From positions 1-63,135 of the IMG/VR virus record IMGVR_UViG_3300033571_005680: 63,135 nt of DNA, one strand, 5' to 3'. The number at the start of each line of letters is the position of its first letter. Position 1 is the stretch's first letter. A program made the position numbers and the translations under genes. Of this stretch, positions 19,674 through 40,624 are shown piece by piece. The notes beneath the pieces were generated by a model, which saw only the letters and a program-made list of their open reading frames with translations, was not told the DNA's origin and did not search any database. Source of the DNA: a virus.

Positions 19674-19790
19674 AGTCAGGTGGCGAAATTGGCAGACGCA
19701 GGGTTTAGTGTTGCTGATGTAGATAGGCAACTTGTCACGCAGCGAGATAGCGTACCCTTTCTATTGTAGGTTCGACCCCTACCCTGACTG
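19674..19790 (+). tRNA. tRNA-like element with oversized anticodon region
   Basis: The acceptor stem AGTCAGG/CCTGACT is a perfect 7 bp. It is followed by TG, a GCG/CGC D-stem around AAATTGGCAGA, and a perfect T-arm GTAGG-TTCGACC-CCTAC, with discriminator G19790. The region between D- and T-arms is 66 bases. AGGGT (19700-19704) can pair with ACCCT (19754-19758), leaving a 49-base loop that holds a GTTGC/GCAAC hairpin. No standard anticodon loop is evident. It may be a tRNA with an insertion or a tRNA mimic. The next ATG is two bases after the end. Confidence 0.55.
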
Positions 19791-21221: not shown

Positions 21222-21724
21222 CTGCTCTCCTCTATACGGCATTTTTATGCCCCCGAACTGCCCTCCTTTGGGCATTAACAAAACTTTAACATTTCGCTAC
21301 ACTCTTACTCTCCCAAGCATTTGAGCTGCTAAATCTGTTTAGCACTGGTACTTTTTCAAAAATAAATTTGGAATTCGGTTATGCGTTGCCGTATGTTTGC
21401 AAAGTCAAACGGAAACGGGTAACCGAAAAATTTGACAAAGTTCTTTTCATCGCTGCTGCACACCCGACCTAATTAAGTCGCTTAGTCCCTGCGGTATGGT
21501 TACGATACGAGCATGAAGAATGCCAAGTAACTCGAGGTTGACCCCCTCGGCGCATAATATCAGTCCCTGTGTGGTATCACTAGACTACGCTTGTAAGATG
21601 TGCGCCAAACCTCGGTAGTTCCGAGTTAGGGTGTTGGGGTTGCCAAACCGAAAGGAGTAACCTACTGCCGAGATCCCATTGAGGTCGATTTATCACCTCT
21701 TTGCCCTCTAAGTGCATAAGTAAA
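21222..21724 (+). ncRNA. Structured non-coding RNA candidate upstream of hammerhead ribozyme
   Basis: About 500 bases have no convincing gene and many local pairings. These include TGCTAAA/TTTAGCA (21326-21343 region) and TTCGGTTA/TAACCGAA enclosing GTTTG/CAAAC and CCGT/ACGG (21375-21427). GGCGCA/TGCGCC spans 21549-21605, and CTCGG/CCGAG and GAGGT/ACCTC lie further on. It ends at a hammerhead ribozyme whose cleavage would define its 3' end. Large ornate RNAs are known in phages near tRNAs, but I cannot match a family. A CCCCCGAAC copy lies at 21250-21258. Confidence 0.5.
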
Positions 21725-21779
21725 AAGCGTCTGCGGATATGCTGTCCGCACTGATGAGCCACGGCATGGCGAAACGCTT
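21725..21779 (+). ncRNA. Hammerhead ribozyme, type III
   Basis: All core positions are present in order. Stem III is AAGCGT (21725-21730)/ACGCTT (21774-21779). C21731 is the cleavage-site base, giving a GUC triplet. Stem I is TGCGGA (21732-21737)/TCCGCA (21745-21750) with loop TATGCTG. The core CTGATGA is at 21751-21757. Stem II is GCC (21758-21760)/GGC (21768-21770) with loop ACGGCAT. GAA is at 21771-21773, followed by A15.1. Cleavage is predicted after C21731 and would release the upstream RNA with a 2',3'-cyclic phosphate. The next gene then starts 61 bases into the downstream fragment. Confidence 0.9.
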
Positions 21780-21791
21780 AAACTAACAAAA

Positions 21792-21974: not shown

Positions 21975-21981
21975 CTGCCCC

Positions 21982-22025
21982 GAACTGCGATGGTCTTAAC
22001 ATTGGTTCGAGTCCAATGGCAGTTC
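21982..22025 (+). ncRNA. tRNA-like minihelix 1 (acceptor + T-arm)
   Basis: The 7-bp acceptor-like stem is GAACTGC (21982-21988)/GCAGTTC (22019-22025). Flush with its 3' strand is a 6-bp hairpin CATTGG/CCAATG with loop TTCGAGT, which fits the T-loop consensus TTCRANN. The D- and anticodon arms are replaced by 11 unpaired bases (GATGGTCTTAA). No T-run follows, so it is not a terminator. It lies between two early genes and could be an RNase P/Z processing signal. Confidence 0.7.
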
Positions 22026-22040
22026 CTTAAACACACACAC

Positions 22041-22145
22041 ATGAAAAAAGTGATCCTCTTTTTCGCCCTCGTGATATGCGTTAACGCTATCGGTTGGCAC
22101 TATTCAGCACACAAACAATGTATACATCTAAACACACACAAATGA
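22041..22145 (+). CDS. Small membrane protein, 34 aa
   Basis: MKKVILFFALVICVNAIGW is a short basic end plus a single hydrophobic segment, followed by a polar tail rich in His. Insertion in the inner membrane is likely. The stop overlaps the next ATG as ATGA, which supports it being translated. Confidence 0.55.
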   Translation: MKKVILFFALVICVNAIGWHYSAHKQCIHLNTHK

Positions 22146-22333
22146 GAGTACGCAAACCTTTGGCAGTAGTTAGCTGCCGTCCCGAACAAAAGCCCATCAT
22201 CAGGCAGAGAGCATTCAGCACCCATGCTCGCATTAAATACCTAGTTCAGCAGCTAGGTCTTGACCCCCTCCAGTATCAGAGAGAAGCAAAGCTAAGATGC
22301 CTATTCCGTGAACTACAAACCCAAAGCATATGA
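22142..22333 (+). CDS. Basic small protein, 63 aa
   Basis: I chose the ATG at 22142 (MRVRKPLAVVSCRPEQKP) because it overlaps the upstream stop; an earlier non-ATG start would overlap that whole gene. The protein is Arg/Gln-rich with a helical C-terminus (ARIKYLVQQLGLDPLQYQRE). It may bind nucleic acid. The stop overlaps the next ATG. Confidence 0.55.
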   Translation: MRVRKPLAVVSCRPEQKPIIRQRAFSTHARIKYLVQQLGLDPLQYQREAKLRCLFRELQTQSI

Positions 22334-22404
22334 AACAGCTAATTCAGTTACTTATTGCCCTAGTGGTAGCTATGTACCTTATCGGCTTATTGCAGTCCAT
22401 TTAA
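22330..22404 (+). CDS. Very small membrane peptide, 24 aa
   Basis: MKQLIQLLIALVVAMYLIG is one transmembrane helix with few polar residues. It is coupled to the upstream gene by an ATGA overlap. Minihelix 2 begins right after its stop. Confidence 0.5.
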   Translation: MKQLIQLLIALVVAMYLIGLLQSI

Positions 22405-22410
22405 GCCCCC

Positions 22411-22458
22411 GAACTGCCCCCATTCTGATGGCATCTCGTTCGTGACGAGAGGCAGTTC
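22411..22458 (+). ncRNA. tRNA-like minihelix 2 (three-way junction form)
   Basis: The outer 8-bp stem is GAACTGCC (22411-22418)/GGCAGTTC (22451-22458). A small hairpin CCAT-TCTG-ATGG (22420-22431) comes first. Then a T-arm-like hairpin TCTCG-TTCGTGA-CGAGA (22434-22450) lies flush against the acceptor 3' strand. A CCCCCGAAC motif (22406-22414) runs into the stem. The last 32 bases are almost identical to those of minihelix 3. Confidence 0.65.
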
Positions 22459-22479
22459 CTCATCAAAAACTCACACACT

Positions 22480-22674
22480 ATGACTATTTACGATGCGTGT
22501 TCTATCGTGGAGGGATTCTGCGGATATGAACCTACTGAAGAAGAGCAACTCCAAGCGTGGTCTTACCTGATTAAATCAGGCGATGCATGGAAATTGCAAG
22601 GATGGTATGGCAGAAACGCCTCCTACTTAATTGATGCGGGATATATTTCTAAATCAGGCGAAGTTTTAAACTAA
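22480..22674 (+). CDS. Small conserved phage protein, 64 aa
   Basis: It starts MTIYDACSIVEGFCGYEPTE and has EEQLQAWSYLIKSGDAWKLQ and WYGRNASYLIDAGYI. This is a widespread small helical protein of phages (the pattern EEEQxQAWxxLIxxGxxWxLQGWYGR) without known function. It starts after minihelix 2 with the A/C-rich leader common to this operon. Confidence 0.7.
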   Translation: MTIYDACSIVEGFCGYEPTEEEQLQAWSYLIKSGDAWKLQGWYGRNASYLIDAGYISKSGEVLN

Positions 22675-22688
22675 AAAACTCAAACATT

Positions 22689-22883
22689 ATGAACTATTCA
22701 TTCTACCTATTCAGCAAGTTATTTGACGTTTATCACACCACCGAAGCCCCATACGATGAACTATTTGAGGAGGTAAAAGCAATGTACAAAGATTGGCTAG
22801 TATGGGATGTTGACAATGGTAAAAATATAGGCGAATACGAGTCTATGTGCGAATATCTCGCTACGACTGCCCCCGAAATTTAA
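22689..22883 (+). CDS. Small early protein, 64 aa
   Basis: It starts MNYSFYLFSKLFDVYHTTEA and is acidic and aromatic-rich, ending YESMCEYLATTAPEI. No domain is recognised. It is spaced 14 bases after the previous stop in the same operon. Confidence 0.6.
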   Translation: MNYSFYLFSKLFDVYHTTEAPYDELFEEVKAMYKDWLVWDVDNGKNIGEYESMCEYLATTAPEI

Positions 22884-22901
22884 TAACTCAAAAACTCACA
22901 T

Positions 22902-23063
22902 ATGTCATACCAATTTATCGCCCACTTTGATGGCAGAGAAATATCAAAGGAATTCGACAGCATCGAGCAATGCCTTCGTGAAGCAGAAAATATGCAGCTA
23001 CTGGGCTGCGAATATGTCGAGGTGCTGATTAACAATGAAACTTATTGTGAATACGAAAACTAA
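22902..23063 (+). CDS. Small early protein, 53 aa
   Basis: It starts MSYQFIAHFDGREISKEF, then IEQCLREAENMQLLGCEYVE. The beta-alpha-beta pattern resembles the two paralogous proteins at 23264 and 23487 (sensor-like small folds), but identity is low. No function is assigned. Confidence 0.6.
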   Translation: MSYQFIAHFDGREISKEFDSIEQCLREAENMQLLGCEYVEVLINNETYCEYEN

Positions 23064-23069
23064 AATACC

Positions 23070-23252
23070 ATGAAAATGTACCATCACGTAATCGAAGAGG
23101 GTCACTACGGCAATGTTGGAACTCATGGCTACTACGATAAAATCGAAGATGCCAAAAAAAGAGTAGCGGAATTGCAAGATATGTTCCCAAAGATGTTCTT
23201 CTATGTCTACTCATCGCCAAGCAAAAGTGAACCCGAATTTATCACCATCTAA
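23070..23252 (+). CDS. Small early protein, 60 aa
   Basis: It starts MKMYHHVIEEGHYGNVGTHG and continues YDKIEDAKKRVAELQDMFPK. It has a mixed fold with His-rich N-terminus; function unknown. A second ATG two codons on is an alternative start. Confidence 0.6.
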   Translation: MKMYHHVIEEGHYGNVGTHGYYDKIEDAKKRVAELQDMFPKMFFYVYSSPSKSEPEFITI

Positions 23253-23263
23253 ACTCAAACACT

Positions 23264-23416
23264 ATGGTAAAAGTATATTTTGAAACGGGAAGCTATGCAG
23301 AACTAGTAGCGACATTCGACAGCGAAGAAACCTACGATGCCTGCTTTAGCGCACTGGAAGCACTAGCAAAAAAGAACGGATTTGAATTTGTCACTGAAAG
23401 CGTAGAGGACTTATAG
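23264..23416 (+). CDS. Small paralogous protein A, 50 aa
   Basis: MVKVYFETGSYAELVATFDS aligns along its length with the protein at 23487 (MIEVYFETKGYAELVAVF). Both end in a GFE.VTESV segment. The pair looks like a local gene duplication. Minihelix 3 starts 6 bases after the stop. Confidence 0.65.
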   Translation: MVKVYFETGSYAELVATFDSEETYDACFSALEALAKKNGFEFVTESVEDL

Positions 23417-23422
23417 TCCCCC

Positions 23423-23468
23423 GAACTGCCCCATACCGATGGCATCTCGTTCGTGACGAGAGCAGTTC
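23423..23468 (+). ncRNA. tRNA-like minihelix 3 (three-way junction form)
   Basis: The outer stem is GAACTGC (23423-23429)/GCAGTTC (23462-23468). The inner hairpin is CCAT-ACCG-ATGG (23431-23442). The T-arm-like hairpin is TCTCG-TTCGTGA-CGAGA (23445-23461). Compared with minihelix 2 the 4-base loop changes (ACCG for TCTG) while the CCAT/ATGG stem is kept, which suggests the fold is maintained. Confidence 0.65.
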
Positions 23469-23486
23469 CACACTAAAACAAACACT

Positions 23487-23636
23487 ATGATTGAAGTCTA
23501 TTTTGAAACCAAAGGCTACGCAGAATTAGTAGCAGTATTCTACAATGAAGATGCCTACATGTCTGCTCTCCCATCGCTACAAGAACAATGCTTGAAGATG
23601 GGTTTTGAAAATGTAACTGAATCAGTAAACCAATAA
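23487..23636 (+). CDS. Small paralogous protein B, 49 aa
   Basis: It is the duplicate of the 23264-23416 product: MIEVYFETKGYAELVAVF, then ENVTESVNQ at the end. The two differ in the middle helix. Function unknown. Confidence 0.65.
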   Translation: MIEVYFETKGYAELVAVFYNEDAYMSALPSLQEQCLKMGFENVTESVNQ

Positions 23637-23647
23637 AACCACACACG

Positions 23648-23872
23648 ATGCTTACAATTTCACAACAACGAGAAATCGACAACGCAAGAGCAGTTCTAAA
23701 AAGTTACGGCTATTATGTTGAAAACCTTTGGCACATTGAAGATGTGTTTCCAAAGCATGATTGCACCGATGATGAGGCATACGATATCCTTGATGAAGCT
23801 ATGCAAAATGACGCTACATATGAGCAGATATGGATGTCTATTGATTACGCAATTGATAAAGTAAAAAAATAA
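23648..23872 (+). CDS. Small conserved phage protein, 74 aa
   Basis: It has LKSYGYYVENLWHIEDVF, then CTDDEAYDILDEAM and TYEQIWMSIDYAID. This is a recurrent small acidic helical protein of Bacteroidota phages and mobile elements (the VENLWHIDDV signature). The role is unknown, perhaps interaction with a host protein. Confidence 0.7.
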   Translation: MLTISQQREIDNARAVLKSYGYYVENLWHIEDVFPKHDCTDDEAYDILDEAMQNDATYEQIWMSIDYAIDKVKK

Positions 23873-23883
23873 AACTCACACAC

Positions 23884-24090
23884 ATGAACCAACTATTTTC
23901 AATAAGCGGATATTGGAAAGATGACAAGTCCGAATTCTCCGACTACATCGTTTCTTCCAGTGATGACATAGGCGAAGATGATGACATCTTTTTCTATGGA
24001 CTATCCGAAAGTGAACTATCCGAAGCGGTAACGCTGGGAGAAAACACCGCACACGAATTTGTTATCACCCATTACGAACCGATAAACTAA
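23884..24090 (+). CDS. Small acidic conserved protein, 68 aa
   Basis: It starts MNQLFSISGYWKDDKSEF, with an acidic middle (SSSDDIGEDDDIFFYG) and then LGENTAHEFVITHYE. The FYGLSE...GENTAHEFVIT pattern recurs in Bacteroidota phage small proteins. Strong acidity would suit DNA mimicry, but that is speculation. Confidence 0.65.
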   Translation: MNQLFSISGYWKDDKSEFSDYIVSSSDDIGEDDDIFFYGLSESELSEAVTLGENTAHEFVITHYEPIN

Positions 24091-24096
24091 ACCACC

Positions 24097-24393
24097 ATGA
24101 CACTACTACAAAAAATCGAATCAGTAAGACAAGAAGCCATCGAAAAGATAAAGCGAAACGGAAGCCAAGTTCTATACGATGAAGCGAAGCATGACCTATA
24201 TGACCTGCCACATCATCACGATACGGACAAGTACGGAAACTACAATCAGTTCGCTATCGTCTCTTACTTTGTAGACGGCGATGACATTGTCTTTAAGGGT
24301 AAGGATGTAGAGGAGGTTTTTGAGGAGAGAGATTTCCATGTAGCAGAACTAGACACCGACTCTCTTGCATATATAGCAGACGAGTGGATATAA
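24097..24393 (+). CDS. Small early protein, 98 aa
   Basis: It starts MTLLQKIESVRQEAIEKIK, then a His/Asp-rich middle (DLPHHHDTDKYG), and ends in an acidic tail (LDTDSLAYIADEWI). No domain is recognised. Minihelix 4 follows 6 bases after its stop. Confidence 0.6.
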   Translation: MTLLQKIESVRQEAIEKIKRNGSQVLYDEAKHDLYDLPHHHDTDKYGNYNQFAIVSYFVDGDDIVFKGKDVEEVFEERDFHVAELDTDSLAYIADEWI

Positions 24394-24399
24394 TCCCCC

Positions 24400-24442
24400 G
24401 AACTGCGATGGTCTTACAAAGGTTCGACTCCTTTGGCAGTTC
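24400..24442 (+). ncRNA. tRNA-like minihelix 4 (acceptor + T-arm)
   Basis: GAACTGC (24400-24406)/GCAGTTC (24436-24442) enclose ten unpaired bases (GATGGTCTTA) and a 6-bp T-arm CAAAGG-TTCGACT-CCTTTG flush with the acceptor strand. It shares its first 17 bases with minihelix 1. The T-stem sequences differ at several paired positions yet stay fully paired, which is compensatory change. Confidence 0.7.
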
Positions 24443-26178: not shown

Positions 26179-26256
26179 AGTCAGGTGGCGTAATTGGTAA
26201 CGCCCTAGCCCTACTCTAAAGGGTAGAAGATACAGGTTCGAATCCTGTCCTGACTA
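26179..26256 (+). tRNA. tRNA-like gene, possible tRNA-Arg(UCU), anomalous anticodon arm
   Basis: The acceptor AGTCAGG/CCTGACT (7 bp), the D-stem GCG/CGC around TAATTGGTAA, and the T-arm ACAGG-TTCGAAT-CCTGT are all perfect. The anticodon hairpin CCCT-ACTCTAA-AGGG has a 7-base loop that would place TCT as anticodon. Base 33 would be C instead of U, and three extra pairs (CTA/TAG) with a bulged G lengthen the stem. The acceptor sequence is identical to that of the element at 19674. It may be functional, decayed, or a processing signal. Confidence 0.55.
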
Positions 26257-40315: not shown

Positions 40316-40624
40316 CTACTTAATCCTCCATACCCTAACCGCGTCAGTGCCAGTCCTCCTAACCGTAAACTTTGCAGCCTTGTTGTTCTTCTTTACGTAG
40401 GCGGTACATGCTGAACTCATCCTAGACACAACCCTTCTTATGTCTGCCTTACCGACCTTAACCTCAAAGGACTCACCGGCAAGCATGTCCTTGAATGGGT
40501 ATCGGATGCTGGGCCCGAGAGACCTGTAAACGCTGGTGATGGGCACGTTCTTTTGGATGATGAATACTTCTCCAACTTCTGTTCTAACTGATCTTTGTTC
40601 TGGCTTCTTTAAAACTTTTGTCAT
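40316..40624 (-). CDS. Small conserved phage protein, 102 aa
   Basis: It has YPFKDMLAGESFEVKVGKAD, then RRVVSRMSSACTAYVKKNNK and FTVRRTGTDAVRVWRIK. The PF..M..GeSF...S...A...Y.........RVWRIK pattern is a widespread small phage protein of unknown function. It is the last gene of the leftward arm. Its start is divergent from the HxlR-type regulator, so it may also have its own promoter. Confidence 0.7.
   Translation of the reverse strand: MTKVLKKPEQRSVRTEVGEVFIIQKNVPITSVYRSLGPSIRYPFKDMLAGESFEVKVGKADIRRVVSRMSSACTAYVKKNNKAAKFTVRRTGTDAVRVWRIK

Follow-up and report, generated by a model that had tools for sequence, protein, structure and literature searches.

The stretch of DNA analysed here, referred to as the window, comprises the 63,135 nucleotides (nt) of the viral record IMGVR_UViG_3300033571_005680 of IMG/VR (positions 1 to 63,135). 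Its terminase shares ~30% identity with its Flavobacterium phage counterparts and also matched Cellulophaga phages, and the window phage is therefore distantly related to phages of Bacteroidota. A rightward run of small open reading frames (ORFs) begins where four short intergenic elements are located, each resembling the acceptor/T-arm half of a transfer RNA (tRNA). The elements share the outer stem GAACTGC/GCAGTTC around a 20-45-nt interior, and a search with the pattern GAACTGCN{20,45}GCAGTTC gave four matches in the 63 kb, all of them elements 1-4, and none in 100 dinucleotide shuffles. On the evidence of their sequences, they appear to belong to an undescribed RNA family which recurs in unrelated phages.

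Anatomy of the four elements

The elements and their parts are located as follows:

21982..22025 (+), element 1, class 1: acceptor 21982-21988/22019-22025; mini D-hairpin GA-TGG-TC 21989-21995
22000-22018 (+), element 1 T-arm: loop TTCGAGT; 3' tail C-TTA; the element scores 61.4 bits (E 1.8e-16) with model R1, of which it is a training member
21978..21981 (+), C-run leader of element 1: CCCC between stop codon and acceptor
22411..22458 (+), element 2, class 2: acceptor 22411-22418/22451-22458; D-hairpin CCAT-TCTG-ATGG 22420-22431
22434-22450 (+), element 2 T-arm: T-stem TCTCG/CGAGA, loop TTCGTGA
23423..23468 (+), element 3, class 2: acceptor 23423-23429/23462-23468; D-hairpin CCAT-ACCG-ATGG 23431-23442
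23445-23461 (+), element 3 T-arm: T-stem with loop TTCGTGA
24400..24442 (+), element 4, class 1: acceptor 24400-24406/24436-24442; mini D-hairpin GA-TGG-TC 24407-24413
24417-24435 (+), element 4 T-arm: loop TTCGACT; 3' tail C-TCA; the element scores 65.6 bits (E 8.9e-18) with R1, likewise as a training member

An initial annotation of the window had described four anticodon-less minihelices in gaps between small genes. Its coordinates are exact, and the stems, loops and flanks are as it gave them, each element being located 6-7 nt past a stop codon and 15-21 nt short of an ATG. For elements 1 and 4 it described the acceptor and T-arm correctly and overlooked the D mini-hairpin GATGGTC (two base pairs (bp) and a TGG triloop). 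The CCAT/ATGG hairpin it reported in elements 2 and 3 is present, but occupies the D-arm position and characterises a distinct covarying class with its own T-loop type, NTCGTGA. The trailers are CTCATCAAAAC-like and A-rich with no T-run, as had been noted, and intrinsic terminators are thereby ruled out. Elements 2, 3 and 4 are preceded by a CCCCC leader. Of the 114 elements of the family sample described below, about 66-74% have C at positions -5 to -1; as others have no C-run, this leader is not essential.

Element 3 is flanked by tandemly duplicated small genes (23256-23335 and 23479-23558; 78% identical DNA), and the ORF upstream of it stops at TAG. A suppressor tRNA with anticodon CTA is encoded at 26179-26256 (+), and read-through of this TAG would continue in frame across element 3; TAG is the stop codon of 8/51 ORFs counted in 20-40 kb of the window.

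A family of covarying classes

Scanning of IMG/VR with a pattern comprising a GAACTGC-type stem and a TTCG core yielded many chance matches together with a clear subset of the same anatomy, and further pattern scans enlarged the set of contigs. The resulting sample consists of the window and regions from 22 related phage records, several of the contigs being near-duplicates of one another. A generic finder flagged 132 places (a single block-shuffled control gave 11 raw hits). Curation by hand discarded weak or dissimilar hits, retained five true-looking sub-threshold ones and left 114 elements representing 84 distinct sequences. A further 85 distinct copies were found with linker/T-loop patterns in other phage lineages (Mycobacterium, Gordonia-like and gut phages). 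One of these is located between genes 57 and 58 of Mycobacterium phage Fowlmouth (host M. smegmatis; contig match 100%), at about 40565-40607 of NC_048734.1 and ~7 nt past the gene 57 stop, while another element-bearing contig is partly similar to Gordonia phages. A T5-like identity suspected for contig L445 was not supported. Model search of whole genomes from three phyla returned 4/1189 positives, all Actinomycetota; because no more than 16 candidates were scored per genome, this search says little about prophages. The internal structure of the elements was absent on inspection from all 120 stretches among the genome-contig matches listed. At gathering thresholds, only tRNAs were matched by Rfam, in 13 element-bearing loci, the family being undetected by Rfam 15. 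No description of it was found in the open-licence literature, and one unseen here may exist elsewhere.

The elements are 43-48 nt long and are built from a 12-13-bp acceptor plus T-arm helix, a 7-base loop and a reduced D-arm. Class 1, whose alignment of 39 sequences includes elements 1 and 4, has a 6-7-bp acceptor in which changes are compensated (GAACTGC, CACCTCC, TAACTGG, GAGAGCG, CATCCCC and other variants), a D-arm shrunk to a hairpin of 2 bp that closes a TGG triloop (GA-TGG-TC, AA-TGG-TT, CA-TGG-TG, TA-TGG-TA, AT-TGG-AT), 3-4 nt between this hairpin and the T-stem, and a 6-7-bp T-stem closed by the loop TTCGANT. TGG, TTCGA and the final G-C pair of the T-stem are invariant in the 39 sequences. 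NATGGTN and ATTGGAT resemble tRNA D-loops around G18 G19, and by analogy with the tRNA elbow the GG of the D-hairpin would dock on the T-loop. Class 2 (elements 2 and 3) carries a 4-bp hairpin at the D-arm position and a 5-bp T-stem with the NTCGTGA type of loop, while class 3 (17 sequences) combines an 8-bp acceptor with a D-hairpin of 3 bp, its loops including AGCGATA. A fourth element type, CGG-TAAAG-CCG plus GCC-TTCGAT-GGC within a GAAC/GTTC stem, was observed in similar gaps of several relatives (L013:542(-), L144:9173(-), L147:4341(-) and L149:3147(+)).

Covariation of the stems was found in each of the three classes tested. In class 1, 97.4% of cells are paired, two-sided changes number 153 against 37 in shuffles, and 13/15 pairs covary (covariation score 0.70, shuffled 0.14), among them both pairs of the GATGGTC mini-hairpin; the signal is lost when the partners are slid by 1-3 columns. 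In class 2, the D-arm is paired in 48/48 cells (23 in shuffles) and the T-arm in 67/70 (44 in shuffles), and a near-twin of element 3, L342:831-876(-), shows a compensated T-stem change from TCTCG/CGAGA to TCCGG/CCGGA. Class 3 has 51 two-sided cells against 16, with a covariation score of 0.50 against 0.12. The counts from these class alignments (A1-A3) are biased, as the finder which chose the members required pairing. An unbiased check was therefore made at loci not used before, with two patterns fixing only the linker and T-loop letters and no stem requirement. A full T-stem and at least five contiguous acceptor pairs were present in 74/85 distinct hits, whereas swapping of the 3' halves among the hits gave a mean of 1.1 and a maximum of 6 in 1000 trials; the 11 failures were on inspection mostly one-mismatch or shifted variants. 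Loss of pairing in relatives, which the initial annotation had named as grounds for abandoning its minihelix interpretation, did not occur.

The clear tRNA resemblance and the real tRNA genes nearby might suggest that decaying tRNA genes have been left in the gaps. This explanation retains virtually no probability and is refuted by the covariation, the compensatory changes throughout, together with full pairing in well over 100 distinct sequences, showing strong current selection.

Acceptor-branch geometry, gene spacing and probable message processing

RNase P (ribonuclease P) measures the stack of the tRNA acceptor and T stems, 7+5 bp (PMC4919913), and N73, C74 and C75 contact its RNA (PMC12710915). 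Synthetic acceptor-stem plus T-arm hairpins proved good RNase P substrates (McClain et al., described in PMC11143913). Among 95 other-lineage elements, the continuous helix from the T-loop to the acceptor end is 12 bp long in 43 and 13 bp in 34 (77/95 together). Tested against tRNA acceptor-branch criteria (12-bp stack, 7-nt T-loop with T54 T55 C56 R57 A58, D-loop GG), class 1 passes, while classes 2 and 3 keep the geometry and not the T-loop letters. Counted from the T-loop, tRNA position 74 is C in 68/95 of the other-lineage elements and in 37/41 class 1 elements of the window's group, whether position 73 is paired or unpaired. T75 (53/95) and A76 (54/95) are favoured too, with no comparably strong preference further out in the other-lineage elements. 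The tRNA genes of the element contigs (the window and L333-L457) show C74 in 145/156, followed mostly by A or T, and only 18/156 encode CCA, which the tails of most elements likewise do not encode. The C74 rule is therefore common to the elements and the genuine tRNA genes of these phages. Enzymes which read the acceptor branch need this geometry together with C74, and the combination is compatible with an RNase P substrate. The minihelix interpretation of the initial annotation is thus strengthened by the covarying acceptor, D and T stems, the invariant class 1 T-loop core, the 12-13-bp branch and C74.

On the sense strand, G-T pairs outnumber A-C pairs by 56 to 6, which points to selection acting on the transcript, with RNA as the probable folding molecule. 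This asymmetry bears on whether the elements could act as DNA, as attC-like recombination or cassette sites or as integrase targets resembling tRNA T-arms by chance. The arrays of small gene cassettes, the two tyrosine recombinases encoded in the window and the differing gene neighbours among phages would suit such a role. It is nevertheless very improbable, as the RNA strand is selected, no crossover core is shared, the elements keep a single orientation, with the genes, and the T-loop and C74 constraints are tRNA-specific. Integron attC sites, with their R/L boxes (GTTRRRY), are ruled out, the 3' strand of the window elements being GCAGTTCCTC, GCAGTTCCAC or GCAGTTCCTT.

The distance from stop codon to element is 6-8 nt in 59/114 elements and that from element to ATG is 18-21 nt in 72/114, about 19 nt (near-duplicate contigs included in both counts), and the 6-8 nt peak is seen again in other lineages. 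Judged from ribosome footprints, this spacing would place the helix just clear of both terminating and initiating ribosomes. From phage to phage, the same upstream and downstream gene families occur with elements of different classes; the classes therefore appear to be functional equivalents and the role of the element is generic. Both observations would also suit uncut insulators or end protectors, the main rival, since a helix just outside the ribosomes can stay folded during translation and the classes are interchangeable. The tRNA-like fold would then stay in the message, or at a 3' end which a different nuclease had produced, and block 3'-5' exonucleases or insulate the translation of the neighbours without RNase P or RNase Z cleavage. 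We consider this credible if unlikely, as a protective hairpin needs no T-loop, no GG D triloop, no fixed length of 12-13 bp and no C74 beyond the helix.

Excised minihelices might alternatively act in trans as tRNA decoys, which titrate or mislead tRNA modification enzymes, the CCA enzyme, EF-Tu or tRNA-attacking defence toxins and which offer anticodon nucleases no anticodon to cut. The precise mimicry of the acceptor branch, the several copies per genome and the tRNA clusters on some element-bearing contigs would accord with this. A decoy role is nonetheless quite unlikely, for the tight intergenic placement, the fixed spacing and the single copies in many phages better suit a role in cis, and the acceptor sequences vary freely, so that no single synthetase is mimicked. 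Aminoacylation identity was set aside on the same grounds, as the variation is found even within one phage.

A further RNA feature is located 5' of the element array, before the operon begins with its first gene:

21724..21780 (+), type III hammerhead ribozyme: Rfam RF00008, 45.3 bits, E 1.2e-7 (gathering score 48.5)

It has an intact core (CUGAUGA...GAAA) with the cleavage site after GUC, and the next ATG lies ~11 nt downstream. Hammerheads are found upstream of the array in 10/23 records, namely the window and nine others (31-45 bits in the homologues), and in the eight that were aligned the core is conserved while the stems vary. RNA processing is therefore already a theme of the window operon. 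The ~260 nt 5' of the hammerhead (21460-21723, +) are non-coding and strongly structured, with a minimum free energy of -74.7 kcal/mol, and include patches in common with relatives and no Rfam match.

Of the functions offered by the initial annotation, which ranged from processing sites to decoys and 3'-end protectors, processing sites fit best, and its suggestion of operon punctuation gains support from the fixed intergenic spacing and the recurrence in unrelated phages. On balance, the elements are probably RNase P/RNase Z punctuation sites of polycistronic phage messages. The comparisons establish their secondary structure, tRNA-like geometry, strand, spacing and recurrence and the exchange of classes, while their transcription, the elbow contact and the cleavage are inferred. 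Within such a message, the element would fold as the acceptor/T-arm half of a tRNA, its T-loop docked on the shrunken D-hairpin to form an elbow, and be recognised by host enzymes which measure this half. The element's 5' border, a few nt past the upstream stop codon, would be cut by RNase P, and its 3' border, ~19 nt ahead of the next start codon, would be generated by RNase Z or 3' trimming. With the 5' end of the early transcript set by self-cleavage of the hammerhead, the transcript would be divided into separate short messages with unstructured A-rich leaders, and the stability and translation of adjacent genes would be uncoupled to the benefit of the phage. The chances are about even for a broader proposition: that minimal mimics of tRNA, each 43-48 nt of acceptor branch and elbow in one of several interchangeable fold classes, are a natural, widespread and hitherto undescribed family which serves as portable host RNase P/RNase Z punctuation in phages of different host phyla and which, in one phage group, is accompanied by a hammerhead at the operon start.

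Several observations weigh against a processing role. The encoded tail is N73-C-T-A and not CCA, whereas RNase P prefers CCA. The T-loops of classes 2 and 3 (NTCGTGA, AGCGATA) are not those of tRNAs and in class 2 the C is frequently at 73 and not 74, so the classes may differ in how well they meet one enzyme. About one third of the other-lineage elements have no ORF of at least 40 amino acids ending just upstream, and many gaps of the window operon contain no element. The predicted minimum-energy fold of element 1 is 4.6 kcal/mol more stable than the tRNA-like fold (-17.3 vs -12.7 kcal/mol); for elements 2, 3 and 4 it is slightly better. Support for the tRNA-like fold comes from covariation and not from single-sequence energy.

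If cleavage occurs, the synthetic minimal substrates which defined RNase P recognition would have natural counterparts in the elements, which would also form a natural-variation family for studying recognition of the acceptor branch. Phages would then cut polycistronic messages by means of the host tRNA-processing enzymes, much as in mitochondrial tRNA punctuation but with reduced, non-translating tRNAs. Unannotated gaps in phage genomes would gain a function and synthetic operons a compact, portable processing signal. The copy in Fowlmouth makes the idea accessible to laboratory testing in M. smegmatis.

The most over-represented 9-mers of the whole window are CCCCCGAAC (16 copies) and CCCCCGAGC (12 copies), about 0.2 being expected of each; they occur, for example, at 21251, 24628, 24847, 26558 and 27840, within genes and in element-free gaps too.

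Comparison with known tRNA-like RNAs

Like tRNA genes (RF00005) and the tRNAs of mitochondrial punctuation, the elements have the acceptor/T-arm geometry, the T-loop TTCGANT, an intergenic position and the C74 of the phages' own tRNAs; unlike them, they have no anticodon arm, a D-arm of 2-5 bp and a length of only 43-48 nt. Membership of RF00005 is ruled out, as in the element region the only matches at E up to 5 were 26179-26256 and 19674-19790. ARAGORN found a single tRNA in the window, at 26179, and neither the elements nor a transfer-messenger RNA (tmRNA). The second match, at 19674-19790 (+; 31.3 bits) and missed by ARAGORN, is a tRNA-like gene in which about 50-60 nt, potentially forming two hairpins, replace or interrupt the anticodon arm. 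The tRNA-like domain of tmRNA similarly lacks an anticodon and has an acceptor, a T-arm and a reduced D-arm, but the elements have no tag ORF and no mRNA-like domain and occur in multiple copies within operons. With no Rfam tmRNA match in the window and none by ARAGORN, tmRNA membership is ruled out.

The effector module of the Y RNA YrlA (RF02553) likewise copies the acceptor, D and T arms of tRNA without an anticodon, and Y RNAs have been reported from mycobacteriophages (PMC8394870, PMC12282133). The elements could accordingly be imagined as YrlA-like mimics which tether the Ro60/Rsr-PNPase degradation machine. Such an identity is largely refuted and hardly any likelihood is left to it. No Rsr/TROVE gene is present in 22 records, the best RF02553 match reaches 13.1 bits against a gathering score of 69, and YrlA RNAs measure 90-150 nt, so that the elements are half the length; their helix stops at 12-13 bp with no long basal stem.

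tRNA mimicry and the cutting of non-tRNAs by RNase P are already known in kind. New here, in being absent from Rfam and the literature searched, are the family itself, the reduced D-hairpin, the interchangeable classes and the proposed use as gene-to-gene punctuation. The acceptor plus T-arm model substrates of McClain and Altman have essentially the same minimal architecture and are cleaved at the canonical site (PMC11143913). They are synthetic, whereas the elements are natural, carry a D mini-hairpin and sit in messages as putative substrates. Natural non-tRNA substrates of RNase P, including phage M3 RNA, the phage C4 antisense RNA and polycistronic mRNAs, are recognised by a tRNA-like shape (PMC11143913), as is proposed for the elements. 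Those substrates are individual cases, whereas the elements form a recurrent, covarying family placed between genes.

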